Shown one piece after another: positions 8,913 to 38,841 of a stretch of 39,322 bases of DNA; position 1 is the stretch's first letter, and every line of letters starts with the position of its first letter. The stretch spans positions 1-39,322 of the IMG/VR virus record IMGVR_UViG_3300044712_000212. One strand, written 5' to 3'. Source of the stretch: a virus. Below the pieces are notes generated by a model. That model saw nothing but the letters and a program-made list of their open reading frames with translations. It was not told the origin of the DNA and did not search any database. The position numbers were made by a program, and so were the translations under genes.

Positions 8913-11900
8913 ATGGGATTCCTTAGTAAGTTCAAGAAGTCTATCCTTGACGATATTAAGTCAGGAGCTAACCTAGGGCTTAAGAGCGCCTCTAGGGGCT
9001 TCGACACGCTTGGAGATGTTTTAGATTCTCCTAGTGGAATCGTTAAGGCTGCTTCTTATCTTAACCCGTATACAGGCGGGCTTGCACTTACTAATGATAT
9101 CTCATCCAGACTAGGTGGGCCTACTATAGGTGGGCTAGCACGCAGCGCGGGTAGCGGCCTAGCATCTGCATATAGCAACTATGGTGAACCTGCCTTAGAC
9201 TATTCCTCGTCTATGGGTCGTGGTGCGTTTGCATCTCGTTTCGCAGATCCAGAACAAACCCCTAGTGGTCTTCGTGCCAACTTCTCCAAGAGCTCCTTTA
9301 AGAAGGGAGCTACTTCTCTCTTCGGTAATACTGAGGAATGGAAGCAAGCTGGTTATGGTGGTAATGGTATTGGGAGCGCATTCAAAGGCGTTCATAATAT
9401 TGGTGGAGACCCTTACTGGAACTCCAACCTTCCCGTTGGTGCCAAGCAGGCAGGAGCCATTGCCTTAGACCCTGCGATGTATATTCCGGCAGGAACCCTA
9501 GGCAAGTTTTCAAGTAAAGTTGGACTCGATGCAACACGAGCAGGTAAGTTACTGCTCGGAGGCGAGAAAGCAGGCGCTACAAGCCGTACAGCGCGCGTGG
9601 CAGGTGGTTTAGTGGAAGGCATGGGAAGATATAACCTTCCCGCAGCATTAGCATCTGGCGTTGCTTCTCAAGCAGCATCTCTCACTCCTTGGAAAGCTGA
9701 TGACGCGATAGCAGGATTCGCTGCTCCAGTTCTTGGTGCCTATGGCGCTAAGAAGCTAGGATTCGAGCCTAGGGCCAATGTTATCAGAGATAACTCCGGG
9801 GATGTGTTCCGTGATATCCATACCCATCTCAGTCAAGACCCTAAGATGCCTGAGGTTGCTCGTGGCAAGGATTGGCAGGAGAAATTCCTTCCAATGCTCC
9901 AAGTTACAAAGAAGGAACAGGAGTGGAACGGACTCACAGACCTGTTCAAGGAACGTGGTCTTAACAAGGTTACGAAGCAAGAGATTCTTGATACTATCAA
10001 AAAGAACAACTTCGATATTGAAGAGAAGGTTCTTGAGGCTCAAGGTAGAAATCCTAAATATACAATTGATACTGAAAGAAATGTAATTAAGTTGTCTGAT
10101 GGTAGAGAGGTTCCTTTTGAAATAAATTCCGAAGGAAATTATGTAGCTCATGATCTGAACGACTCTGGTTCTACAACAGAGACGCATTCATTAGACATGT
10201 TGGCTCAACATTTTGAAATGTACTATTCCAGTGGTCATCCAGATCTACCCAGATACCACCCTTACACAGTCCCCGGTGGAGATCCTGGCACCTATAGAGA
10301 GATCCTGATTAAGCAGTCTCCGCAGAGTTCCGAGGGCGTTGACCCTATGTCTTGGAAACCTGCTTCGCCAACTGCTACAGAACAGGTGGCGCGGGATTTA
10401 CAACAAAGTATTGGACTAGAGGTTTCCTTCCCTTATTCTATCATGTATAACGGTAGAAATGGAAAATATACATTAAAGCGCGTAGACAAGGAAACTGGAA
10501 GCATTGCCTACCTTGGAGAATTTAACTCTAAGGATGATGCTATTGATTTTGCTGCCCAACTAAAATCTAATAAGATCTCTGATAACCAGTGGCATGATCA
10601 AGGCGACGTGTTGATGCATATCCGTGTTGATGATAGAAATAACGGAAAGCAACTCTTTGTGCATGAGATTCAGTCAGACTGGGCGCAAGAGAATAGAAGC
10701 GGTAAAGAAACTCATGTCACTCATAATAATGCACCAGATAAAACTGAATGGGAAAAGCAGCCAAATGATCCAATGGATGATCCAAATCATACATATTATT
10801 ATAGAAAAAGTGAACCACCGGGATCAAGAACAGACTTTATCATTAAACAGTTAAATTACAAAGATGACACTGTTTACAGGGCATATGTAGCTAATGGGAT
10901 TGATGGTTCTGTTGAATTTCCGACCCTAGAAGAAGCTGCTAAGTATATTCATGATAATTCTAATACTAGTAGACACCCTCATCCATTCCAAGACAACTGG
11001 CAGACAGTTGGGGTGAAGAGAATTCTTCGCTATGCAGCAGATAATGGTTATGACGAGGTTAAGTTTGCTTCTGGTGAACAAACTCTAGATATCCCCGGTA
11101 TGGAACTCGCTAGGGGAAGCAAGGAAGAGGCAGGTAGACTTAGTTCCTACAACAAGACTATTCCTGATATCGTCAATGGTCTCGCTAAGAGATTCGACCT
11201 TAAGGTTGGCAAGGAAGGTGGGGCAACCACACTAGCTGCCGTAGGAGATGATATCACTGGCCCTGAGCTTTGGGATGTTATGCATGTAAATGGAGACTTA
11301 GAGTGGCAAGGGCCACACGGGTATAAGGCTACAACTCAACTTGGCACAGAATTTATTAAAACATATCAAGATTGGTTAAATGCAAATCCATCGCTTATGG
11401 ATCCTACCGTTAAAGATTATGTTAACTGGTTGGTTGGGGTAGGACACACTACATTAGCGGAAGATATTGCAGATATAACTGGAGTTAAATTAAGAGAAGT
11501 TCCTACTGGACAAAACACAGTCATCAAGTTGACCCCTGAGTCTAGGGCTGCAATCACGGCTAAGCCACAGACTATGTTCGGGGTTAAGAGTGGCCCGTTA
11601 GGGGAATTTGATCCTAACTCTGAGAAGCGCGCTGCAAGACAGGCTAGATATAAGCAGGTTCCTCCGGGGACTACGTTAGACGAGAGTGGGAATGTTATCT
11701 ATCCTCGTAATAACGTGCCTATGGATGTATTCAACAAGGCTAAGGAAAACCCTCAGTTTGTACCGAATACACCTACGAACAGACCTAATGACCTTTCTAT
11801 TCCTGAGAAGTCAGCGGCTTCTAATACAGCGAACTTAGATATTGAGAACTCAATCCAGAGAGAGATTGTTAGAGATCAGGCTGCGAGCCTAGGGGATCAA

Positions 11901-14900
11901 CAGCCTATTGAACCTACTCCGCCTCGTCCTCCTACAACGAATATTCAAGCAGCATCTGAGCAGCTTCCTACTGAGATTCAACCTAATGTTGCTAGAAGAT
12001 TCGACGAGACAGGCCCTACTGTATCCGAAGGTTCTAATGTTCCCACACTAAGACAACAACTTCAGTCTGTAGCATGGGGGCCTGCAGAGGTTGGAGAACC
12101 CGGCGCTAAGGTTCTTGCTAAAGAAGAAAAGAAGAGGGGTAAGTTTAAAACCTCTCCTTTCGAGCGCCCGCAGGCTGCTCCTATGGGAGACTATAGAGCA
12201 AGGGCAGAAGAACTCCTTAAGACACTTCCTCCAGAGGAACTAGATGCTCCGGTTAGAACAACCGATGCTGCAGAACTTATCAGTTCCTTACAGGGGCGTG
12301 AGGATCTTGGAAAGACACTAGATCAGAAGGAACTGGCTGCACACGATTATCAACAGTCCACTAATCAGAATCCTGCTGTTTCTCCTATGCAGGCACAGGG
12401 CTCTGTCTCTGGTGGATTACCTGTTGCTAACACCAAGCCTAGGATTCCTATGGAGAGCGTGGATGCGCCTACACAGGAAACCCTTATCAAGAATGCTGTT
12501 CAAGACTCAGGGCCTCCTACTCCTAAGGGGCCTGCTAAGCCTGAGTTAGCACTTCCTGAAGATATGAGAAAGAGCACCAAGTTCTTAGCTGTTCCTAGGC
12601 CCTTAGCTATGCTTGCAGAAGAAGTCAAGAACGGTGGAAACGCTGTTACTAGAGCTATTATGAGCACGCTCGGTGTCAATCCTTCTATGGCGATGACAAG
12701 CCCTATCGGGCGCTTGGTTGTTGCCAAGATTCGCCAAGACGGGGTTATTGAACAGCTTACAGAACAGGCTTCGGCTGTCCTTGATAGATATGCTGGTAAG
12801 GGCGGTATCAGAGGGGTTAACAGTGTCATTGGTATTGACGATAAGGGAATCCTTAAGGGAGTCAATGCACACTGGAACGATGTGTTCTCCAACATTGAGG
12901 CTTACAAGGACAAACTTAGTCCTCAGCAACTCAGGTTCGCAGAAGACTATAAGGCCCTACTGGATGACCTGAGAATCATGCAGGTTGCTAACGGCGTTCC
13001 TGTCCTGCCTAGAGAGACAGATGGCAAGTTCTGGATTCCCCGTGTTACAGCAGGGGTTAATGGAATCGAGATTATCAGGCCTACTAACCACGCACATGAT
13101 AGAATTTGGGAACTGGCTACTGAAGGTGTTAAGAACGGTGTGGACTATGCCGACCCTAGAGAGACTATGAAGCTCTACACCTATGACACCTACAGAGAGA
13201 TTGTTAAGAAGCAATTTGCGGCAGAGATGGAAAAGGTCTCTATGCCCCTGCAGGGCTCGATCAATCCTGAGGTTTATCAGAAGTATCAGGATGCGCTCTT
13301 AGCCAAGGAAGACCAAACTCTTAAGGTGAAGACAGCAGGTGAAGCGTTTGCCAAGGACAAGGAGAACGCAGACCTTAAGAAAATCTTCATGGACGAGAAG
13401 GCTAAACTCAAGGAAGTAAACAAGGAGCATAAGAGTGCTCGTTACGCTGTTGACCAAGCCCTTAAGGAAACACGTTCTCAGGAAGTTAACAAGTCCCTTG
13501 CTTACAACGAGAAGGGTGAGCGCGTAGGCGTGGCTCCATTCACAGTTGCTAAGCTCGGAGAGAGACTGGTTAACAGAGATGACGCTCAACTTCTGCATGA
13601 CTACATCGGTGTTGCAGGATACATTCCTAAGAGCGAAGAGTCTCACTTTGTCCAGCGCGCCGCTGGTGTCTTTGGTAGAACTATTCGTCAAACCACGGCC
13701 AGCTTTGACTTTGCAACTCCATTTGTTCACGGCCTTCCTACGCTCGCAAACAATCCGATTGGTTGGAGTAAAGCAGTGGCAGGTCAGTTTAGGGCATTCG
13801 TAGACCCTAAGTTCGTTGCTCAGTACCAAGTTGAGAATGGTGCCATTATCAATGAGATGCGTCAGTATGGCGTGGATGTTAGTTCTAACGAATTCTTCGA
13901 ACTCTCTACATCAGGAGAGGGTGGCAAGGCTTGGAACAAGGTTACAGGGAAACTTGGCCCTGTTAATACTATTGGTAAGGAAGCTACCAAGCAGACTATG
14001 GGTAGACTCCAATCAGCTATGGCTATGAACCTGATGATCACCAGAGTTGAACTGTGGAAGGCTAACAAGGATGCCTTCTTAAAAGACCAAGGTATCATGC
14101 ACACAGGCATAGCCCAAGGCTCTGCACACGCAGATCCTATGGCTGGCTTAGCACAGTATGTTAGAAACATGTCTGGTGCGCTAGACGCAAGAGACCTGTT
14201 GGTTTCTAAGAATCAGAGAGACCTTGAATCCCTTTGGTTGGCATTCTCGCCTAAGTTGTTCCGTTCTACACTCTCCTTGGTTGGTATGGCTACTAAGCCT
14301 ACGACTGTGGAGGGTAGGGCAGCACTCAGAAGCCTTGCTGTCATGAGTACAGCAGCAGCCCTTACATTCTACGGACTTAATAGACTTTCTGGCAATAGCC
14401 ACGAAGAATCCCTCGCTTCTATCAATCCTAGTAATACAAGACAGTTCATGTCTGTTAAGGTGGGAGATGGCTACTATGGAATCGGTGGACAGATGCGCTC
14501 AGTCGCTCAGTTGCTTGGGCAATCAGGTAAGGCCATTCAGCAAGGAGACTTCTCCGACTTCAAGTCTTGGGATCAGGCTCAGAACCCTCTCTTACGATTC
14601 TACGTTGGAAGAGGCGCTCCTGCTCTGTCCCTTACTCAGAACACAATTGAAGCTGCTAGCGGTGGGAAGATTAACTCGAATCCCTATGAACAAGTGAATG
14701 GCATCTTCGATATGTCAGACTTTACTCATAGCCTAGTGGCTACCACAGGGAAAGACTTCTTGCCCTTCGTGGCACAGAACAAGCTTCAGGGAGAAAATGC
14801 TCCGCAGTTAGCCTTTGAAACATTTGGTGGTAGATACACAAAGTTCTCCAGAGCAGAAGAAACTGATCAGCGCGTTCTGGCGTCTGGTTATAAGAAATTG

Positions 14901-15944
14901 GATGGTACTCCCGCTACCACAATCAATGATTTGAATAAGGAGCAGAAGGATGATTTCTACAAGAAAAATCCTGTTGCTCAAATCACATCTAGCGACAATG
15001 TTACCAAGATGTTCAGTTCAATCAATGATGAGGAAGCTGCCTATCAGGCTGATATTCTGAAGTATACTGCATTTGTAGACGCTGGCAAGATGACTAAGGA
15101 GCAGTTCAAGGATTGGTATAACCAGAGAAGCAAAGAGAAGTTTGCTAAGATTGCTCAGGTCAAAAAGGATGCTTCCATACAACCAGCCAACAGGCCGGGT
15201 TTCACCGGGAGCGTGACTGACTATATCAACTCCAAGAACACCAGACCTGAAGACAGGGCTGTGGATGAGTACTACAACGTCTCGGCTACAACTCCGCTTA
15301 CAGAGCAGGGGACAGTGAACTTCGATCTCATCTCCAAGAGAAGAAATGACTTGTTGAGCTCCTTACCAACGGAGCAGGCAGCCTATGTTAGAAGAATGGT
15401 GAACAAGCCTAGTCAAACGCCTGACTCGAAGCTCGTCACAGAGTACGATATCGTGAAGGATATTACTAAGCCTTATTGGGAGGCTGAGGGACAAATCTTC
15501 GATGCTCTCAAGGAGAAGTCTGGATTCCTTGCTCAGTTCGGTTCTAAGGATGCCTATGACAAGTGGGTTCAGCAGACCTCGCAAGAGTCTGGTCTTACCC
15601 CGGCTACATTCCAAGCCTACTTGAGCAAGAAGGTTAAGGATGTGGCATCCCTCGATAAGATCACCACAGACTACAAGAAGAGAATGAGACTTTCAGATCC
15701 TCAGTTAGACAGGGCTCTTACAGAATGGTATGGGATGGAACCTGCTAACAGAGTGGACTATCTCCTGTCAGGATTTGGTAGTGACCAAGGTGCTGCTATG
15801 GCCTCTCAAATCTACAATGGTGATGGCCCCTCTAGGGCTCAGGTAGCAGACTTTGGACTGAACCTTGCTAAATCTGGCCTCAGAACACAGCCTAGAAAGT
15901 TCTACAGACCCAAAGAAATGTCATTGAAATCCTCACAATCCTAG
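8913..15944 (+). CDS. giant polyvalent / internal virion protein (2343 aa)
   Basis: One intact 7-kb frame. Residues 1-300 are Gly/Ala/Ser-rich with possible amphipathic helices. At about 584 is the motif HEIQSDW, followed by a helix with RILRYAADNGYDEVKF and SGEQT (about 710-725) and a closing ITGVKLREV...TMFG segment (about 865-890). This trio recurs in very large 'polyvalent' phage proteins thought to enter the host with DNA; membership is from memory, not a search. Residues about 930-1230 are Pro-rich linker. A helical C-terminal half (about 1240-2343) has DFATPFVHGLPTLANNP and other membrane-active-looking stretches. There is no tape-measure coiled-coil pattern. A role in ejection and early host takeover is inferred. 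The catalytic activity of the EIQSDW module is not known to me. Confidence 0.7.
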   Translation: MGFLSKFKKSILDDIKSGANLGLKSASRGFDTLGDVLDSPSGIVKAASYLNPYTGGLALTNDISSRLGGPTIGGLARSAGSGLASAYSNYGEPALDYSSSMGRGAFASRFADPEQTPSGLRANFSKSSFKKGATSLFGNTEEWKQAGYGGNGIGSAFKGVHNIGGDPYWNSNLPVGAKQAGAIALDPAMYIPAGTLGKFSSKVGLDATRAGKLLLGGEKAGATSRTARVAGGLVEGMGRYNLPAALASGVASQAASLTPWKADDAIAGFAAPVLGAYGAKKLGFEPRANVIRDNSGDVFRDIHTHLSQDPKMPEVARGKDWQEKFLPMLQVTKKEQEWNGLTDLFKERGLNKVTKQEILDTIKKNNFDIEEKVLEAQGRNPKYTIDTERNVIKLSDGREVPFEINSEGNYVAHDLNDSGSTTETHSLDMLAQHFEMYYSSGHPDLPRYHPYTVPGGDPGTYREILIKQSPQSSEGVDPMSWKPASPTATEQVARDLQQSIGLEVSFPYSIMYNGRNGKYTLKRVDKETGSIAYLGEFNSKDDAIDFAAQLKSNKISDNQWHDQGDVLMHIRVDDRNNGKQLFVHEIQSDWAQENRSGKETHVTHNNAPDKTEWEKQPNDPMDDPNHTYYYRKSEPPGSRTDFIIKQLNYKDDTVYRAYVANGIDGSVEFPTLEEAAKYIHDNSNTSRHPHPFQDNWQTVGVKRILRYAADNGYDEVKFASGEQTLDIPGMELARGSKEEAGRLSSYNKTIPDIVNGLAKRFDLKVGKEGGATTLAAVGDDITGPELWDVMHVNGDLEWQGPHGYKATTQLGTEFIKTYQDWLNANPSLMDPTVKDYVNWLVGVGHTTLAEDIADITGVKLREVPTGQNTVIKLTPESRAAITAKPQTMFGVKSGPLGEFDPNSEKRAARQARYKQVPPGTTLDESGNVIYPRNNVPMDVFNKAKENPQFVPNTPTNRPNDLSIPEKSAASNTANLDIENSIQREIVRDQAASLGDQQPIEPTPPRPPTTNIQAASEQLPTEIQPNVARRFDETGPTVSEGSNVPTLRQQLQSVAWGPAEVGEPGAKVLAKEEKKRGKFKTSPFERPQAAPMGDYRARAEELLKTLPPEELDAPVRTTDAAELISSLQGREDLGKTLDQKELAAHDYQQSTNQNPAVSPMQAQGSVSGGLPVANTKPRIPMESVDAPTQETLIKNAVQDSGPPTPKGPAKPELALPEDMRKSTKFLAVPRPLAMLAEEVKNGGNAVTRAIMSTLGVNPSMAMTSPIGRLVVAKIRQDGVIEQLTEQASAVLDRYAGKGGIRGVNSVIGIDDKGILKGVNAHWNDVFSNIEAYKDKLSPQQLRFAEDYKALLDDLRIMQVANGVPVLPRETDGKFWIPRVTAGVNGIEIIRPTNHAHDRIWELATEGVKNGVDYADPRETMKLYTYDTYREIVKKQFAAEMEKVSMPLQGSINPEVYQKYQDALLAKEDQTLKVKTAGEAFAKDKENADLKKIFMDEKAKLKEVNKEHKSARYAVDQALKETRSQEVNKSLAYNEKGERVGVAPFTVAKLGERLVNRDDAQLLHDYIGVAGYIPKSEESHFVQRAAGVFGRTIRQTTASFDFATPFVHGLPTLANNPIGWSKAVAGQFRAFVDPKFVAQYQVENGAIINEMRQYGVDVSSNEFFELSTSGEGGKAWNKVTGKLGPVNTIGKEATKQTMGRLQSAMAMNLMITRVELWKANKDAFLKDQGIMHTGIAQGSAHADPMAGLAQYVRNMSGALDARDLLVSKNQRDLESLWLAFSPKLFRSTLSLVGMATKPTTVEGRAALRSLAVMSTAAALTFYGLNRLSGNSHEESLASINPSNTRQFMSVKVGDGYYGIGGQMRSVAQLLGQSGKAIQQGDFSDFKSWDQAQNPLLRFYVGRGAPALSLTQNTIEAASGGKINSNPYEQVNGIFDMSDFTHSLVATTGKDFLPFVAQNKLQGENAPQLAFETFGGRYTKFSRAEETDQRVLASGYKKLDGTPATTINDLNKEQKDDFYKKNPVAQITSSDNVTKMFSSINDEEAAYQADILKYTAFVDAGKMTKEQFKDWYNQRSKEKFAKIAQVKKDASIQPANRPGFTGSVTDYINSKNTRPEDRAVDEYYNVSATTPLTEQGTVNFDLISKRRNDLLSSLPTEQAAYVRRMVNKPSQTPDSKLVTEYDIVKDITKPYWEAEGQIFDALKEKSGFLAQFGSKDAYDKWVQQTSQESGLTPATFQAYLSKKVKDVASLDKITTDYKKRMRLSDPQLDRALTEWYGMEPANRVDYLLSGFGSDQGAAMASQIYNGDGPSRAQVADFGLNLAKSGLRTQPRKFYRPKEMSLKSSQS

Positions 15945-29656: not shown

Positions 29657-29954
29657 TGCGACGAAGAACCTTTCTCCTGATGAACAGCCTTACCTTCCAG
29701 TAAAACTTGTTCCATAGGGCCTGGGGCCATCCTACGTAGAATATCCAGACCATATACAGGAAGCCTACCACGAATCCTCCTGCAGGAATACCGTACTGAG
29801 GGTACGATATGGCTAGATTGATTAATCCAAGAATCCCTATGATTAGGGCAAGCGCAAGGATACTGAAGTGAACCACGATGATGATCTTGGTTCTGTTTCT
29901 GAATCCTCCCTCATACGGTTCACTGTACATCTTATCGAGAAATCGATCTATCAC
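29637..29954 (-). CDS. two-TM membrane protein (105 aa)
   Basis: GTG 29954 with AAAGGTGAT about 8 nt upstream. Two hydrophobic spans at about residues 23-49 and 56-80, and a strongly basic C-terminus (RLFIRRKVLRRNVGLVG), fit an N-in, C-in inner-membrane protein. It is divergent from the metallophosphoesterase gene and coupled to the metzincin gene. It could be a holin-like protein or an anchor/partner for the protease; neither is shown. Confidence 0.65.
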   Translation of the reverse strand: MIDRFLDKMYSEPYEGGFRNRTKIIIVVHFSILALALIIGILGLINLAISYPQYGIPAGGFVVGFLYMVWIFYVGWPQALWNKFYWKVRLFIRRKVLRRNVGLVG

Positions 29955-29983
29955 TTGACAATCACCTTTCTATGTGTTATAGT
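29955..29983 (+). promoter_or_regulatory. consensus promoter, leaderless for the metallophosphoesterase
   Basis: TTGACA (29955-29960), 17-bp spacer, TATAGT (29978-29983), then seven bases to ATG 29991. The -35 box abuts the divergent GTG start at 29954, so the two genes share this 36-bp control region. Confidence 0.8.
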
Positions 29984-29990
29984 AGTTGGA

Positions 29991-30869
29991 ATGACCAAAC
30001 GAGACAAAAGCGGTAGATTTACATCTAACAAACCACGCCCTGAGAGATGGGTAATCGTTGGCGATACGCAGGTTCCCTTTCATTATGCGCCAGCGGTAGA
30101 GCTAGCGGCACAGATCATCGAGGAAGTTAATCCTGATCATCTTGTGTACAATGGTGATATGATTGACTTTTGGTCGATCTCGAAGCATCAGCCGAACCGA
30201 TCCACAATTCTTCAGGCACTATCTCTTCAGGAAGAGGTAGACAGAACCATTGCCATCCAAGATAAGTTGGGCCGGGGAATTCACTCGACCTGTAAAAAGC
30301 ACAACATTGACGGCAACCATGAGGACAGGTTGGAACGATTCCTAGGATACGGGGAATCCAAAGTTCTTGGCTCTCTTCGTATGTTACGCATGGAGAATGT
30401 CTTTCGTTATGAAGACCGTGGGTTCGCATCATATAGGCCTTATGGTGAGGGAATCTGGATCACCGATAACCTCTTTGTGTACCACGGCCAGTTTGTGTCC
30501 CCAGTACCCGGCTCTTCCGTTAAGAAAGAAATAGATGCCATAGGCGCGTCCGTCATCATGAACCACGTCCACAGACGCAGTGATATCCGTTTCCGTCAAG
30601 GTAATCACGAATGGAGGGGTATTGAGAATGGTTGTCTTTGTCAACTTGCTAGCTCCTACAGTGTGATGACCAATTGGGCTCATGCCCTTACTGTGGTTGA
30701 GAAGTACGACAACAGGCATTGGGATGCTCAGGTTATCGATATCGTCACTGATAATAATGTGGTATACTGCATGTACAGGGGCACCAAGTTTACGGTGAGT
30801 TCTGATTATTCAGATGGACTCTCTCTTCCTTGGAGACCTGATATGAACAGAAATTATGAGGTAGATTAA
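29991..30869 (+). CDS. calcineurin-like metallophosphoesterase (292 aa)
   Basis: Two-metal phosphoesterase signature in order: GDTQVPFH (24-31), YNGDMIDFW (53-61), DGNHEDR (107-113), VYHGQF (163-168) and MNHVHR (190-195). The first motif is D-T-Q rather than D-x-H, a form I know from actinophage homologues ('GDTQIPF'). Start ATG 29991 is chosen over upstream codons because the promoter -10 box ends 7 nt before it. Substrate unknown; phage members may act on nucleotides or nucleic-acid ends. It heads a short plus-strand operon ending at the 31698 terminator. Confidence 0.88.
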   Translation: MTKRDKSGRFTSNKPRPERWVIVGDTQVPFHYAPAVELAAQIIEEVNPDHLVYNGDMIDFWSISKHQPNRSTILQALSLQEEVDRTIAIQDKLGRGIHSTCKKHNIDGNHEDRLERFLGYGESKVLGSLRMLRMENVFRYEDRGFASYRPYGEGIWITDNLFVYHGQFVSPVPGSSVKKEIDAIGASVIMNHVHRRSDIRFRQGNHEWRGIENGCLCQLASSYSVMTNWAHALTVVEKYDNRHWDAQVIDIVTDNNVVYCMYRGTKFTVSSDYSDGLSLPWRPDMNRNYEVD

Positions 30870-32991: not shown

Positions 32992-33309
32992 CTAAGACTT
33001 GCCGACAGCCCAAAGCTTAGAGTACACAGAGTTTTTACTGCGACCTAAAGCCTTTGCTATCTCGAACAATGAAACTCCGTCTTCAGTCATAGAAAGCAAA
33101 GTGGAGATTTCATCTTGACTCCACGATTGACCACCATTCTCTGCTTCATATGTTTCATCTGGTGTTTCGACGGAATCCCAAGGTTCCCGAGTAAAGCTGA
33201 TTGTGCCGTGATCCAGACAGTACCATTCATTTAAGTTCTTGAGGGTAGTCTTTCCGCATGGCAGTTTCATGTATTTATTCTGAAAAGGACACTTGGGATG
33301 TTGTTGCAT
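32992..33309 (-). CDS. GcrA-like HTH protein with N-terminal C-C-CxxH zinc site (105 aa)
   Basis: Cys 7, 18, 31 and His 34 (KCPF ... LPCGK ... YCLDHG) form a putative zinc site. Residues about 62-104 (SWSQDEISTLLSMTEDGVSL, then FEIAKALGRSKNSVYSKLWA) match the trihelical GcrA/Myb-like HTH in which a conserved Trp opens helix 1 and 'I-A-x-x-L-G-R-S-x-x-x-V' forms the turn. Expressed from its own consensus leaderless promoter overlapped by a palindrome, which suggests tight, possibly self-directed control. Probably a transcription regulator of the phage. Confidence 0.75.
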   Translation of the reverse strand: MQQHPKCPFQNKYMKLPCGKTTLKNLNEWYCLDHGTISFTREPWDSVETPDETYEAENGGQSWSQDEISTLLSMTEDGVSLFEIAKALGRSKNSVYSKLWAVGKS

Positions 33310-33312
33310 ATC

Positions 33313-33327
33313 GTGCTATTATAGCAC
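33313..33327. promoter_or_regulatory. 15-bp palindrome over the -10 box, candidate operator
   Basis: GTGCTA (33313-33318), TTA, TAGCAC (33322-33327): 6-bp perfect arms covering the minus-strand -10 box. A dimeric repressor here would block RNA polymerase. The adjacent HTH protein is the natural candidate. Confidence 0.55.
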
Positions 33328-33346
33328 TAATCGACCCATCTGTCAA
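33318..33346 (-). promoter_or_regulatory. perfect consensus promoter, leaderless for the GcrA-like gene
   Basis: On the minus strand TTGACA (33346-33341), 17-bp spacer and TATAAT (33323-33318), then eight bases to ATG 33309. No Shine-Dalgarno sequence. The -35 box lies inside the end of the upstream gene, so this promoter is internal to the minus-strand cluster. Confidence 0.85.
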
Positions 33347-33708: not shown

Positions 33709-33889
33709 GTGCCTTCTTTCTTGCGCGATAAGCGCGCTGATACTCAGCTTTCTTTGCCTTGTAGTGCGGAGTATATGTCATTCCGATGTGTACTTTGTAG
33801 TGGTATTCACACCTACCACCCTGAAAGACATATCGTGTACAGTCTGCACAAATAGCCCATAGTTGTGGTCTAGTTGTCGAGCGCGGCAA
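33692..33889 (-). CDS. small basic C-C-CxxH zinc protein (65 aa)
   Basis: Start TTG 33889 overlaps the end of ThyX; AGGA lies about 10 nt upstream. Cys 14, 17, 27 and His 30, 34 (ICADC ... RCEYHYKVH) form a zinc site, followed by a basic helix (KAKKAEYQRAYRARKKALAT). This short zinc-plus-basic-helix plan suits DNA binding. Same C-C-CxxH logic as three other genes here. Confidence 0.65.
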   Translation of the reverse strand: MPRSTTRPQLWAICADCTRYVFQGGRCEYHYKVHIGMTYTPHYKAKKAEYQRAYRARKKALATAS

Positions 33890-34541
33890 GCCGAGGTCTT
33901 CCTTCTTCGTTCCACAATCTATAGGTTACTGGTGCAACCTTCTCGAATGATTCTTCTACAAGCATCGCTGCCCTGTTGATTTCTCTAAGAGCCTGCGGTG
34001 CGTTACGAAGCACTAGAAAGTTTGTGAGATTTCGTAGATCAGTACCCCAAAAGAACTTAGTATAAATACTAAGAGGGATGTGATTACGAGCCACTTCACG
34101 AGCGATACCCATCTCAAGGTATTTTTCATATCCTTCCCACGCTAAAGAGCAGTAGTGCTTTTGTGAGACGATATACTGAGCGCGGTCATCATCGCTAGAC
34201 AAGGTTTCGTATTCATACGACATCTTCTTGCCTACTTGCTGACGAACATCCTCAGTTCTAGGGACGTAGAACTTTGGCTTGTATTCTGAGTACCTTCCAG
34301 ACACTTCATTGAAGGAGCTCATGCGGTGCTTGAACCACTCTCTAGCTACGAAGATGGGCACTTCGATCAGGAACTCAAAGCGAACCTTCTCAAAGGGTGT
34401 ACCATGTCCGTTCTTGATAAGGGTACGAATAAGGCCCTCGTCTGCATCAGAGAACTTCTGATGTGTAGTGTCTAACGAGAGCCTAGCAGCGTTGACAATT
34501 CGTAGATCATCACCCATGCTGTCAACCAGAGTGACGCCCAT
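33870..34541 (-). CDS. thyX: flavin-dependent thymidylate synthase ThyX
   Basis: Makes dTMP from dUMP with FAD, NADPH and methylene-tetrahydrofolate. From ATG 34541 (223 aa): MGVTLVDSMGDDLRIVNAAR (20 residues) is a standard ThyX start, the ThyX motif is KHRMSSFNEVSGR (71-83; consensus RHRxxSxNxxSxR with the first Arg as Lys), and the C-terminal LRNLTNFLVLRNAPQALREI (20 residues) is the substrate-binding helix region. Longer frames to 34685 overlap the amidoligase gene and are not favoured; the visible SD is poor, so coupling is likely. It supports phage DNA synthesis. Confidence 0.93.
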   Translation of the reverse strand: MGVTLVDSMGDDLRIVNAARLSLDTTHQKFSDADEGLIRTLIKNGHGTPFEKVRFEFLIEVPIFVAREWFKHRMSSFNEVSGRYSEYKPKFYVPRTEDVRQQVGKKMSYEYETLSSDDDRAQYIVSQKHYCSLAWEGYEKYLEMGIAREVARNHIPLSIYTKFFWGTDLRNLTNFLVLRNAPQALREINRAAMLVEESFEKVAPVTYRLWNEEGRPRLAALDN

Positions 34542-34554
34542 TTCTGAGGAGAAT

Positions 34555-35328
34555 TCAAGGTCTGATATCTGGATACTCCTTTGCAAGTTGAGCATACCCT
34601 TCTTCATCAGACTCGTTAATGGTATGCTGTATGAGTTTGCCAATGGTTGAGTCTTCTTCGATCTGAACATTCTTGGCGAATTCAATAGCTTTGAGCGTAG
34701 CGTTCCAGACCCAAAACCTCATCTCCGAAGAAAATATCCAGAAGTTACTGAGGGTTCTGTATTCAACGCCATACTCTTTCAGGCGGAATGCGCCTGCCTT
34801 GCCATATAGCTTTCGACGCTCCTTGTCAGGGTCAAGGACAACCGATGGAACTCCGAGAAACAAGTCCATACACCTAATAAGGTTTGTAGGGTTGATATCA
34901 GTGACTCCACCAACATGTACATGACCACCTGCAGTACGGAACGTACTATCAGCGGCACTTGGCTTATCGTTAATACAACGAGCCCAAGCGTCAAAATCAG
35001 GTTCACACCCAAATTCGAGAGCTTCTGGTCTATCCAATTCCTTTGGATCAAAGGAGGCTGACGCCTTAAGGGAGATACCGCGATGATTTGCTTTTGCGTA
35101 TTGTTCACAGATGCTTAGTCCCTTCACAATATTGTTAGCGAAGTCATCGGGGTTACTGGCTGGTGGCACATTGTACTCTGCTGCAACATTGTCCTCAAGA
35201 ATGAAGAACCCGCCGCCAGCAGCCCTAGGATGGCTCTTAGAGCCACCAATTAGTCCAATGGCAGAGGATGGCTTACCATCCAATTCAAAGAATACCTCAG
35301 GGTCTGCCCCTAAAGTAATCTCTACCAC
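34555..35328 (-). CDS. phiEco32-type amidoligase (COOH-NH2 ligase type 2)
   Basis: Glutamine-synthetase-fold ligase that would join a carboxyl and an amine with ATP. Motifs: LGADPEVFF (6-14), HPRAAGGG (33-40), DNVAAEYNVPPA (46-57), LEFGCEPDFDAW (104-115), AGGHVHVGG (133-141) and EYGVEYRTLSNFW (185-197); the Glu and His residues are the expected metal and ATP ligands. Described by comparative genomics in phage phiEco32 and relatives; the substrate is not established as far as I know. Start GTG 35328 with AGGAG 7 nt upstream overlaps the stop of the 174-aa gene. No glutamine amidotransferase partner is visible in this window. Confidence 0.9.
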   Translation of the reverse strand: MVEITLGADPEVFFELDGKPSSAIGLIGGSKSHPRAAGGGFFILEDNVAAEYNVPPASNPDDFANNIVKGLSICEQYAKANHRGISLKASASFDPKELDRPEALEFGCEPDFDAWARCINDKPSAADSTFRTAGGHVHVGGVTDINPTNLIRCMDLFLGVPSVVLDPDKERRKLYGKAGAFRLKEYGVEYRTLSNFWIFSSEMRFWVWNATLKAIEFAKNVQIEEDSTIGKLIQHTINESDEEGYAQLAKEYPDIRP

Positions 35329-35846
35329 TGCCTAGCTCCTGCCTTCTTCTCTCCCATTTGCTTAGGATAGAACCTGTCTTGGCTAAATGCATAGCCGACA
35401 AGCTTCATATCCTTTGGAGGAATAGAGCAGACCACGAAAGCCATTGGTGAACCAACGGTTCTGTTGGCAGGAAACTCCAAGTACTTCTTCCATCCAGTGT
35501 TCAGAGCAACCAACTTGTCAGCATGTTGCGGAGGACACGACGCATTGATCACATTGTACCCTGTAACACTGGCGATGTTACGAGTAATGAAATCCTGCAT
35601 AGCGATGGATTCAGGGACGATAGGATAAATGGCTCCCATCTGGAGATTACCACAGTTGCGAGCAACCTGATAAACTTCAGTAGAACCACCCTTAGATCCC
35701 TTAACTCGGAGACCGGGGCCTTGCCATTCGGGATAGGAGAAAATCAATCCTCCAATCATTTCCTCAAGCTTCTCATCTCTGATGTGAAACTTGCCTTCCT
35801 CAAGAGCCTTGAGGTTTGTGTTATGCCACCAGTAATGGTCTTCCAT
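35322..35846 (-). CDS. amidoligase-linked paralogue 1 (174 aa), unknown function
   Basis: Coupled to the amidoligase gene by a 7-base overlap. Motifs shared with the next gene: HNTNLKALEEGKFHIRDEKL (20 residues), RNCGN, MQDFITRN, TGYNV and KLVALNTGWKKYLEF. The body is mixed alpha/beta without a signal peptide; conserved Cys and Asn-rich patches could be catalytic, but none match a known enzyme. The tail is basic (MGEKKAGARQW). It could be a ligase substrate, adaptor or protein-modifying partner; that is inference from linkage only. Confidence 0.7.
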   Translation of the reverse strand: MEDHYWWHNTNLKALEEGKFHIRDEKLEEMIGGLIFSYPEWQGPGLRVKGSKGGSTEVYQVARNCGNLQMGAIYPIVPESIAMQDFITRNIASVTGYNVINASCPPQHADKLVALNTGWKKYLEFPANRTVGSPMAFVVCSIPPKDMKLVGYAFSQDRFYPKQMGEKKAGARQW

Positions 35847-36355
35847 TAGCGCCTGACTCCTTTGACATTCATGTTTGTTTTTTGTGAGAGAAGTGCATAT
35901 GACAGGGGTTTCTCAGAATGTCGCCTAGAGGATGGTGCTGTAACTGCTACCACCCATCCCGTATTCAGAGCGACAAACTGATCAATGTTTGCCTTGTATC
36001 CATTCATTGCTGCAACCCCATAGCCGTTGTACATCATGAAGTTACGCAGAAGAAAGTCCATCGTCTTAACCCTTTTGGGCTCCAAACATGGGTAAGGAAC
36101 GTTATAGAAGTTCACCATCCCACAGTTATAGTACTGTTCACGCCAGTACATTACTGTCCAACCATCAGAAATATTCCAACTCTTATTTTGAGCATCGTCT
36201 GTATTTCTGTCTGCTGGATATGTAATTGATATCTTATAGGGGCCAACAAAGAGTTTTTCAATCTCTTCGTCCTTGATGATGAACTCCTTAGCCTTTAGCC
36301 GTTCTATACCCTCGGGGTTAAACCAACCTGTCAATGCAGTTTCCTCTATTTGCAA
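35846..36355 (-). CDS. amidoligase-linked paralogue 2 (169 aa), unknown function
   Basis: Begins at TTG 36355 (weak SD GGA) and shares TAATG with the next gene. It aligns by eye with paralogue 1: FNPEGIERLKAKEFIIKDEE (20 residues), YNCGMVNF, MDFLLRNF, NGYGV and QFVALNTGWVVAV. Divergence elsewhere is high, so the duplication is old. The C-terminus is again basic (NMNVKGVRR). Retention of two diverged copies beside an amidoligase suggests a hetero-complex or two targets. Confidence 0.7.
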   Translation of the reverse strand: MQIEETALTGWFNPEGIERLKAKEFIIKDEEIEKLFVGPYKISITYPADRNTDDAQNKSWNISDGWTVMYWREQYYNCGMVNFYNVPYPCLEPKRVKTMDFLLRNFMMYNGYGVAAMNGYKANIDQFVALNTGWVVAVTAPSSRRHSEKPLSYALLSQKTNMNVKGVRR

Positions 36356-36600
36356 TAGATCCAGTACGCCTCATAGGCATAAAGCTGGTCGAAGTATCGA
36401 GTTACAAACTCGGGGATATAGACATGATCAAGATAATCTTCTGTCCATGCATCCCACTGTTGCGTATCGCCATTGAAGTGCCACATGATTGAGATGTTGC
36501 ACTCTTTGTGTGCATCTTGAAATTCAAGAGCAGAGGACTGTTGTCCAGAGATGAAATTCCATCCATGAAACAACAACAAGAAGATGACGTTAAGAATCAA
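36346..36600 (-). CDS. small secreted or membrane-anchored protein (84 aa)
   Basis: TTG 36600 start with AAAGGATTAAGG upstream, overlapping the nuclease-like gene stop by 11 bases. Residues 2-11 (ILNVIFLLLF) form a short hydrophobic signal-like segment; the rest is aromatic and acidic (HFNGDTQQWDAWTEDYLDHV, 20 residues), ending EFVTRYFDQLYAYEAYWIYC. The last part faintly resembles the F-[IL]-x-R-N-x(n)-GY segment of the two following paralogues. Function unknown. Confidence 0.55.
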   Translation of the reverse strand: MILNVIFLLLFHGWNFISGQQSSALEFQDAHKECNISIMWHFNGDTQQWDAWTEDYLDHVYIPEFVTRYFDQLYAYEAYWIYCK

Positions 36601-36952
36601 CCTTAATCCTTTCTAACAACCCTCCTAAGAATTTTTCTATGTTCTCATCCTTCGGGAATACCTCCAGCATTATGAACCTACGTGCATTCTGCCCTCGCGT
36701 TCCGTGGAATGTAAAGCAGACTAACGGAAACCTAGGAGTCTTTGAGGCTTTTTCCCTCAAAGCATTAGCGTCGTATTGTTGAATCGCTTTTCTGAATTCT
36801 GCTGAATACTGGCCGAGATTTCTATACTTATGCTCGGCGGTAAACCAAGTCCCGGTTATATCCTCATTGGATACGCCCTGAGATGGGACTCGTTTACCAC
36901 CAAGGAAGTTACCCCACCACCTTTCAGCAGCTTTATCGCTGCTATCTGGCAT
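36590..36952 (-). CDS. putative PD-(D/E)XK nuclease, Holliday-junction-resolvase-like (120 aa)
   Basis: Compact resolvase-type plan: helix 1 Glu (AAERWW, Glu 10), GGKRVPSQG, then Asp 31 and Glu40-x-Lys42 (DITGTWFTAEHKYR) matching E...D...ExK of small phage/archaeal resolvases. The closing strand reads PLVCFTFHGTRGQNARRFIM (20 residues). It would cut branched DNA before packaging. The motif set is complete but the family call is by eye. Confidence 0.65.
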   Translation of the reverse strand: MPDSSDKAAERWWGNFLGGKRVPSQGVSNEDITGTWFTAEHKYRNLGQYSAEFRKAIQQYDANALREKASKTPRFPLVCFTFHGTRGQNARRFIMLEVFPKDENIEKFLGGLLERIKVDS

Positions 36953-37458
36953 TAGTTAGTCCGCTTCTGATAAACCTCGCGGTACTTACAGTACCATCTC
37001 AGTTGACCGTTCACATCTCTAACGTTTGTTAACGCCCAAGACGGCGGATTATTCCTGTCAGTAGCAGCTTCCCAGCGGTTACACTGAAGACCACTGCCAA
37101 ACTTAGCAGGATAAACATACTGCCCACTATGCTCAGGACACGTCCACTTTGGCTGAGCAGCACCCTCAGTTTGTGTCGGGGTACTAGCATTACCAGTCTG
37201 TCTTCTAAACGCAGGAGAAACTCCATGATCTCTCACCTGAGCAACTAAAGCAGGAATGGTGCCCACTTCTGCCATACCAGACAGGCCAGCAAATTCACCA
37301 TCCTCATCAAATCTCTTAAGGTCTTCCTCGGTAGCATATACAACTACCTTGAAGCCATCGATTTCACCTTCGATTGTAACTCTACTCAATTCTTCTCCTA
37401 CCCATTCATAGGTAACAGGATCAAACATCATCACGTTGGCGAGATGTTCCTGTGTCAT
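36952..37458 (-). CDS. zinc-site protein (168 aa), recombination-cluster
   Basis: ATG 37458 preferred (GGTGA 9 nt upstream); a TTG at 37464 adds two residues. The N-terminal half is beta-rich and acidic (VTIEGEIDGFKVVVYATEED, 20 residues). A Thr/Gln/Ala linker leads to a zinc-like C-terminal domain: CPEHSG, LQCNRWEAA, RWYCKYREVY. The domain order resembles phage single-strand-binding or exonuclease-helper proteins with a C-terminal zinc patch, but it is not identified. It lies between two nuclease-like genes. Confidence 0.55.
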   Translation of the reverse strand: MTQEHLANVMMFDPVTYEWVGEELSRVTIEGEIDGFKVVVYATEEDLKRFDEDGEFAGLSGMAEVGTIPALVAQVRDHGVSPAFRRQTGNASTPTQTEGAAQPKWTCPEHSGQYVYPAKFGSGLQCNRWEAATDRNNPPSWALTNVRDVNGQLRWYCKYREVYQKRTN

Positions 37459-37657
37459 TTTCAAGGTTCACCAACTTAATAGGCTCGAAGACTGCATAAC
37501 CTTCGTCCCAATTTATCATCATGACTGCATATGCAGATGCACCGAACATGTGAAAGGCCTTCCCGTCAATTACATCAGGGATAAAACCTAATCCGTTCTC
37601 TAATTCAAGCCCATCATTAGGGCCACCCGTGAACTTGAATCTTTCAATCTTGCTCAC
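37421..37657 (-). CDS. small hypothetical protein (78 aa)
   Basis: GTG 37657 is chosen since GGAGG lies 6 nt upstream; the frame also runs to 37678 within the upstream gene. Sequence VSKIERFKFTGGPNDGLELE (20 residues) is a pattern common in small phage/plasmid proteins ('F-x-G-G-P-x-D-G'), followed by beta strands. Overlaps the neighbours on both sides. No function known. Confidence 0.55.
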   Translation of the reverse strand: MSKIERFKFTGGPNDGLELENGLGFIPDVIDGKAFHMFGASAYAVMMINWDEGYAVFEPIKLVNLENDTGTSRQRDDV

Positions 37658-38585
37658 CACACACCTCCACTTTAGCACAGCCTCCGCAGGGGTTGAATGA
37701 GCCAGTCAATTCTTTGTTCTTACCACCCCAAACATTGGATGGGATTACTTTTGCTTTCTCAAGCTCTACGTACTGAGACGTATTCTTGGCGAAATACATG
37801 GCAGGCCCTGCGCTGCCTTTATCGACGTAATTCATTTGCTCAGAGAGAATATCTGTAGCAAGTTCTGACGTTTCAATCTCTGGCTTGATGATTTCTGCGT
37901 AAAAGGTAAGTGAACCGTTTCCCTTTTCTCCTAGATATTCGTCCTTCTCAAAGACCTTGACGATATCCTTTGCAGCAACCAAAGCTAAGCCTTGCTTGAA
38001 TCCTGATGCCGCTAACTCACACTGTAACTGAACATACCCTGATGGGTTTGCCATTCTAAATCCAACGAATGGATACTCTGCAAAACCCCTTCTTATCCAC
38101 TTCCCCTTCTGTTGTCCACTCATCTTATATGCAGCGGACTTTACAGAAACGATTGTCGGGATTCCAAGGATTTTTACAACACCATCACTTTTGGATTGGG
38201 CAATTGGACGTCCTGATTTATCCAACAGGATACACTCCTGCTGAGTTTCAATCAATGGATATCCCGCTGCCTCCAGTGTAGCTAACGCTGCTATTTCAAC
38301 AGCATGACCAAGCCAGAACGTGAAACGACTAGAGCCGCTAACATCTTCTCCCTTAAAGCCTAATAACCCAAGGGCTATGTCTCTGGTGCAACCACCAGCC
38401 TTAGATAAACCAAAGACACGTTTGCCATCTACCTGATTGGTATGTTCGTCTTTCCACTCAAGCATCTTGATGTGCATGAGCTCTCCGAACCTATCAACCC
38501 ATTGATGCCACTCTGGATCTCCTGATTTATCAGCGTGGTTCTTCCACCATTTCTCCATCGCACGACCAATAGGATGGCCGTACAT
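37644..38585 (-). CDS. Cas4/RecB-like exonuclease with 4Fe-4S site (313 aa)
   Basis: PD-(D/E)XK fold with iron-sulfur ligands: Cys 66 (GGCTRD), then C300-x2-C303-x5-C309 (NPCGGCAKVEVCG), exactly the C...CxxCx5C spacing of Cas4/AddB proteins. Nuclease motifs: GHAVE (93-97), Asp 134 (SKSDGVV), Lys 149 in SVKSA and a Q-rich YVQLQCEL helix. The expected Glu of ExK is Ser 147, so activity may be altered or the residue supplied elsewhere. It would resect DNA ends in phage recombination. The start ATG overlaps the preceding micro-gene stop (TAATG). Confidence 0.8.
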   Translation of the reverse strand: MYGHPIGRAMEKWWKNHADKSGDPEWHQWVDRFGELMHIKMLEWKDEHTNQVDGKRVFGLSKAGGCTRDIALGLLGFKGEDVSGSSRFTFWLGHAVEIAALATLEAAGYPLIETQQECILLDKSGRPIAQSKSDGVVKILGIPTIVSVKSAAYKMSGQQKGKWIRRGFAEYPFVGFRMANPSGYVQLQCELAASGFKQGLALVAAKDIVKVFEKDEYLGEKGNGSLTFYAEIIKPEIETSELATDILSEQMNYVDKGSAGPAMYFAKNTSQYVELEKAKVIPSNVWGGKNKELTGSFNPCGGCAKVEVCGEQD

Positions 38586-38678: not shown

Positions 38679-38754
38679 TGGCGACCCCGGTAGGACTCGA
38701 ACCTACGACCTATTGTTTAGAAGACAATCGCTCTATCCTCTGAGCTACGGGGCC
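38679..38754 (-). tRNA. tRNA-Arg (anticodon UCU)
   Basis: Minus strand: acceptor GGCCCCG pairs with CGGGGTC (one G-U), D-arm GCTC...GAGC, anticodon stem TTGT/ACAA with loop CTTCTAA (anticodon TCT), T-arm GTAGG-TTCGAGT-CCTAC. Discriminator G and an encoded CCA at the end. It reads AGA, which is frequent in this window. Confidence 0.95.
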
Positions 38755-38758
38755 ATTG

Positions 38759-38841
38759 TACTCCTGATAGGATTCGAACCTATACGCTTTCATTAGCGGC
38801 AGATTTTAAGTCTGCTGTGTCTGCCATTTCACCACAGGAGC
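38759..38841 (-). tRNA. tRNA-Leu (anticodon UAA)
   Basis: Minus strand: acceptor GCTCCTG/CAGGAGT, anticodon stem CAGA/TCTG with loop CTTAAAA (anticodon TAA), long variable arm CGCTAATGAAAGCG typical of class II tRNAs, T-arm ATAGG-TTCGAAT-CCTAT. CCA is not encoded. It lies 4 bp from tRNA-Arg, so both are probably one transcript. Confidence 0.95.

Follow-up and report, generated by a model that had tools for sequence, protein, structure and literature searches.

What does a solitary carboxylate-amine ligase do in a phage genome, and do the two related genes preceding it belong to the same system? The locus that raises this question lies in a 39,322-base virus record of the IMG/VR type, referred to below in its full length as the window. 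Directly upstream of the ligase gene, on the same strand, are two genes here called W174 and W169 (Table 1). A sequence-only reading of this DNA had proposed a PF14395 ligase with two paralogous, unannotated partners, plausibly serving amide-bond modification, and in this it was right. What it overlooked is the absence of the enzyme cassette found around such ligases in other phages; a ligase stripped of these companions is the truly unexpected feature of the locus.

Table 1. Genes of the ligase locus and its surroundings in the window.
Feature	Coordinates	Strand	Length	Remarks
Predicted COOH.NH2 ligase (PF14395, phrog_3815)	34555..35328	-	257 aa	GTG start
W174, paralogue	35322..35846	-	174 aa	directly upstream of ligase, overlapping it
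W169, paralogue	35846..36355	-	169 aa	TTG start
ORF with hydrophobic N-terminus, putative gene	36346..36600	-	84 aa	TTG start
ThyX (Thy1, PF02511)	33870..34541	-		next downstream of ligase; likely start ATG 34541
Remaining overlapping upstream gene run	36590..38585	-	120 aa, ~170 aa, ~85 aa, 313 aa	four genes

Along the minus strand, the genes run from a Cas4-like exonuclease (38585) through several small genes to the 84-aa ORF, W169, W174, the ligase and ThyX, for which an alternative, longer ORF with a TTG start reaching 34685 would overlap the ligase. The exonuclease is the 313-aa gene of the upstream run (phrog_1990, E 1.6e-4), and its 120-aa, ~170-aa and ~85-aa neighbours could be assigned to no family. 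The coordinates confirm the overlaps that had been described for this locus: the ligase GTG start lies at 35328 and the W174 stop ends at 35322, W174 and W169 meet in a TAATG at 35846, and W169 and the 84-aa ORF share ten bases (36346-36355). The fixed stoichiometric unit that had been read from these overlaps does not follow, since 22 of the 36 same-strand junctions of the window overlap or abut and such junctions are therefore ordinary here. As for the 84-aa ORF, taken earlier for a signal-peptide-like gene, its hydrophobic N-terminus stands, but TTG is the sole start type nearby and no homologue was found among phage records, so that the gene itself is unproven. Two tRNA genes, Arg(tct) and Leu(taa), lie upstream of the minus-strand gene run (38679-38841, minus strand). 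Further along the same strand, the 105-aa HTH gene at 32992-33309 is preceded by a perfect match to a sigma-70-type promoter (33318-33346; TTGACA-17-TATAAT with TG before the -10 element, 12 of 12 positions).

Profile searches bear out the earlier assignment of the ligase gene as a phiEco32-type amidoligase. Its product matches PF14395 with an E value of 1.9e-13 and 50.7 bits (curated cut-off 25) and phrog_3815 over its full length (residues 3-250, E 4.3e-74); its identity reaches 45% with GenBank phage ligases and is 44% with LUZ24 gp16. In an alignment of the window ligase with 14 other phage ligases, 22 columns are invariant across all 15 sequences, and all of them are kept in the window protein, including D9, E11, D46, E51, R131, H136, H138, R171, E189 and R191. 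Judged from these matches, it is an intact PF14395/phrog_3815 COOH.NH2 ligase. The PF14395 family as a whole belongs to the glutamine-synthetase/GCS-like class of carboxylate-amine ligases. No PDB chain was matched at E 1 by a profile built from its phage members, and by sequence search these enzymes therefore appear structurally uncharacterised.

The system as a whole had been put forward as undescribed, which does not hold: the ligase family and a peptide or cell-wall-modification cassette around it are published predictions (PMC11945000, PMC10580990, PMC3890496), credited in citing papers also to Iyer et al. 2009. The LUZ24/phiEco32-type cassette has been termed a 'peptidoglycan modification module' (PMC11945000), and the phage cassette was proposed to modify peptidoglycan, thereby blocking superinfection or preparing lysis (PMC11945000; PMC10580990). 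The product is only predicted in the literature that we searched, where we found no experiment on it. In phages such as LUZ24, BUCT695, Salmonella 7-11 and ECBP2, the genes around the ligase encode a ~190-aa protein, a second amidoligase, a class-II glutamine amidotransferase and an ATP-grasp ligase, often together with a gamma-glutamyl cyclotransferase or a C26/class-I amidotransferase.

The window shares with this multi-enzyme cassette the COOH.NH2 ligase gene and has none of its companions. We built HMMs for six cassette families, which in leave-one-out runs recovered nearly all held-out members, and found no second amidoligase, GAT-II, ATP-grasp, C26/GATase-1, GGCT or ~190-aa partner in the 39.3-kb window. 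The record may be incomplete, given that no DNA polymerase was found among the window ORFs scanned, and the cassette genes could therefore lie elsewhere in the genome. We compared the locus with the 80 IMG/VR relatives closest to the window ligase (out of at least 591), seeking cassette genes within 7 kb of each ligase. The second amidoligase and GAT-II were each present in 76 of these loci, C26/GATase-1 in 75 and ATP-grasp in 74; at least one cassette gene accompanied the ligase in all 80, and the missing genes mostly reflect contigs cut off near the ligase. The window, in contrast, extends 34 kb to one side of its ligase and 4 kb to the other with no cassette gene, which makes it the only solitary ligase among those compared. 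The missing ~190-aa partner belongs to phrog_4877 (e.g., LUZ24 gp17) and, in 54 of the 80 relatives, is encoded by the gene that follows the ligase.

The two upstream genes are paralogous, as had been noticed earlier: their products show 27% identity over 147 aa (BLASTP E 1e-12), and both contain the motif VALNTGW, which in W174 stands in the order NCG, GY, VALNTGW and NR..G. They are the sole two copies in the window genome. Searches of Pfam, PHROGs, NCBIfam and PDB sequences with either protein gave nothing meaningful. Nor did the paralogues turn out to be widespread without a ligase, the occurrence that had been named as speaking against the proposal: no close homologue of either was found in 50,697 phage records, by pattern scans of IMG/VR or in GTDB genomes, and contigs of related phages reached via terminase and capsid contained neither the paralogues nor the ligase. 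A DNA-level scan for VALNTGW yielded 20 loci, all of them chance matches.

Some of the 80 related loci encode, upstream of the ligase, proteins that share the motif order of the window pair, namely [N/C]CG, a helix, a strand, G[FW] and then N..[ST]G. Iterated HMM searches in which W174 and W169 were never included gathered 49 members of this [N/C]CG family, among them QDWS535 gp44 and LUZ24 gp12. At least one copy is present in 27 and at least two copies in 11 of the 61 loci with more than 3 kb of sequence upstream of the ligase. Tandem paralogous pairs lie directly upstream of the ligase at L081, L082 and L087, as they do in the window, and further pairs were found at L088, L095 and L112. In 24 loci chosen independently of the ligase, no match to the family stood clear of background. 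The family is fast-evolving, encoded around ligases in many phages and without functional annotation in the libraries searched.

Several weak signals suggest that the [N/C]CG proteins probably have a GNAT fold, all family matches to GNAT models being below curated cut-offs. The member at L082:1588-2046 matches PF00583 with E 0.0034 and a GNAT model of NCBIfam with E 0.007, and carries RKLGLG after its CCG, an acyl-CoA loop at the right spacing; another member (L135:1560-2156) has RNLGIG at the matching position, again with the right loop spacing. The second match of the family profile in the PDB was the prophage protein 3g8w (E 0.13), which we take to be a GNAT. For the window pair itself, a low-confidence model of W169 (pLDDT 41.6), computed before the family was known and with no sequences other than W174 and W169, has a predicted b-a-b-a-b-b order in residues 79-157. 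With Foldseek, its PDB matches were mostly acetyltransferases at E 0.04 or worse, none falling below E 0.001, and with VIA-align GNATs were mixed with other a/b folds ranking equally, at Z below 7. The W174 model (pLDDT 29) was unusable. Whereas these features resemble the GNAT acetyltransferases of PF00583, the R/QxxGxG/A acyl-CoA loop is absent from both W174 and W169, so that, if they are GNATs, they would not be ordinary acetyl-CoA enzymes. Ligase-GNAT links are noted earlier in a passage of PMC4431377 that cites Iyer et al. 2009.

Whether the window pair belongs to the [N/C]CG family bears directly on the foremost alternative, according to which the ligase acts alone or with host enzymes, and W174 and W169 are unrelated orphan early proteins that became its neighbours by chance in a packed operon. 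The prevalence of overlapping genes in the window agrees with such a view, as does the lack of close homologues in the collections searched, which leaves conserved linkage not directly demonstrable. Two observations oppose it: many unrelated phages encode [N/C]CG proteins near the ligase, some of them as tandem copies directly upstream of it, and with two of the three profiles used the window pair outscored every column shuffle. Against the family profile, the pair scored 18.7, above all 500 column shuffles (maximum 17.4), and against an earlier version 21.4, above all 300 (maximum 18.0), but with a third profile of eight hand-picked relatives it did no better than shuffles. Among 150 natural homologous pairs, one exceeds the window pair (28.5) and itself resembles a family member. 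When 796 ORFs were scored with a profile from which both had been left out, W174 came first and W169 second, and these two are the sole ones that score among 15 ORFs containing [N/C]CG. On the opposing side, the A4-A1 comparison gave E 0.14. When [NCDS]CG was masked, the profile signal was lost for both proteins, a dependence on the motif that speaks for chance neighbours. Since the family was moreover picked partly by a motif common to W174 and W169, the evidence for their membership is suggestive only. Overall, we regard the pair as probably divergent members of the family, which they resemble in the position next to the ligase, the frequent occurrence in two copies and the motif order, and from which they differ in being far diverged, with weak, motif-dependent similarity. 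The earlier remark that no family like these partners is known is, accordingly, probably wrong. Chance neighbourhood remains a serious contender, though on balance we do not favour it.

A second kind of duplicated partner occurs in Grimontviridae, Aeromonas phage LAh_9 and other phages, where upstream of the ligase there are two to four genes for proteins of ~300 aa that contain a CFG motif and an RN helix (CFG-RN; phrog_24882 and phrog_19161, related to 27195 and 34254). They lie directly upstream of it at L015, L020-L022, L027, L031, L035 and L037; LAh_9 has four copies, and two Grimontviridae copies are related to each other (hhalign 97%). By eye these proteins resemble W174 and W169, but controls reject homology, 7 of 300 shuffles and 14 of 245 natural ORFs scoring as high. 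They share with the window pair the tandem arrangement of related genes immediately before the ligase, but are longer and show no significant similarity to W174 and W169. Duplicated upstream partners have therefore either arisen repeatedly or diverged so far that their relationship can no longer be recognised.

Taken together, we give an even chance to the explanation that the locus is a reduced phage COOH.NH2-ligase cassette, composed of an ATP-dependent amide ligase and a duplicated GNAT-like accessory pair. The ligase would most likely use ATP, the ATP-dependent joining of a carboxylate to an amine being characteristic of its family, and its target may be a small metabolite, a peptide side chain or a protein. 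W174 and W169 would be diverged duplicates belonging to a rapidly evolving, ligase-associated family that probably has a GNAT fold. As they lack the acyl-CoA loop, we infer a non-canonical role for them, which may lie in binding the ligase's acceptor or product, in presenting it or, alternatively, in acyl transfer from a donor other than CoA. In full cassettes, GAT-II would supply ammonia, C26/GATase-1 would trim gamma-glutamyl bonds, and Amidoligase_2 and ATP-grasp would add a second residue. The window phage may have kept the first ligation step with the GNAT-like pair and dropped the steps that supply ammonia and trim or extend the product. Since the companion enzymes are absent from the fragment, the phage would make a one-step product or rely on host or unsequenced genes. 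A stronger form of this explanation, in which one ligase and a GNAT-like heteropair without the CoA loop make up a minimal stand-alone system, the pair selecting or presenting the substrate with no companion enzymes, seems to us unlikely, although worth considering.

The role proposed earlier for W174 and W169, that of substrates or carriers, i.e. small proteins receiving a residue from the ligase, appears quite improbable. Their fast evolution and location directly upstream of the ligase would suit it, but neither sequence shows a conserved tag-like tail, the conserved part of the [N/C]CG proteins looks like a folded domain, and carrier proteins are usually much smaller. That the solitary ligase is a decaying, functionless remnant of a lost cassette is highly improbable: all the other cassette genes are indeed gone, yet the ligase ORF is full length, retains every invariant residue and sits in a gapless operon.

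The proposed reduced cassette with its accessory pair is of interest beyond this phage. COOH.NH2-ligase cassettes are common, with at least 591 ligase relatives in IMG/VR and 312 phage records, and the substrate would be easiest to track down in a phage with just one ligase and two partners. As for the GNAT-like [N/C]CG proteins that recur around these ligases, they are a missing component to be built into any model of the pathway.

Two further genes were noted on the plus strand, away from the ligase. In the structural region, positions 8913-15944 encode a 2343-aa protein without a match in Pfam and PHROG searches, and positions 29868-30869 encode a calcineurin-like metallophosphoesterase (phrog_221, E 4e-28).
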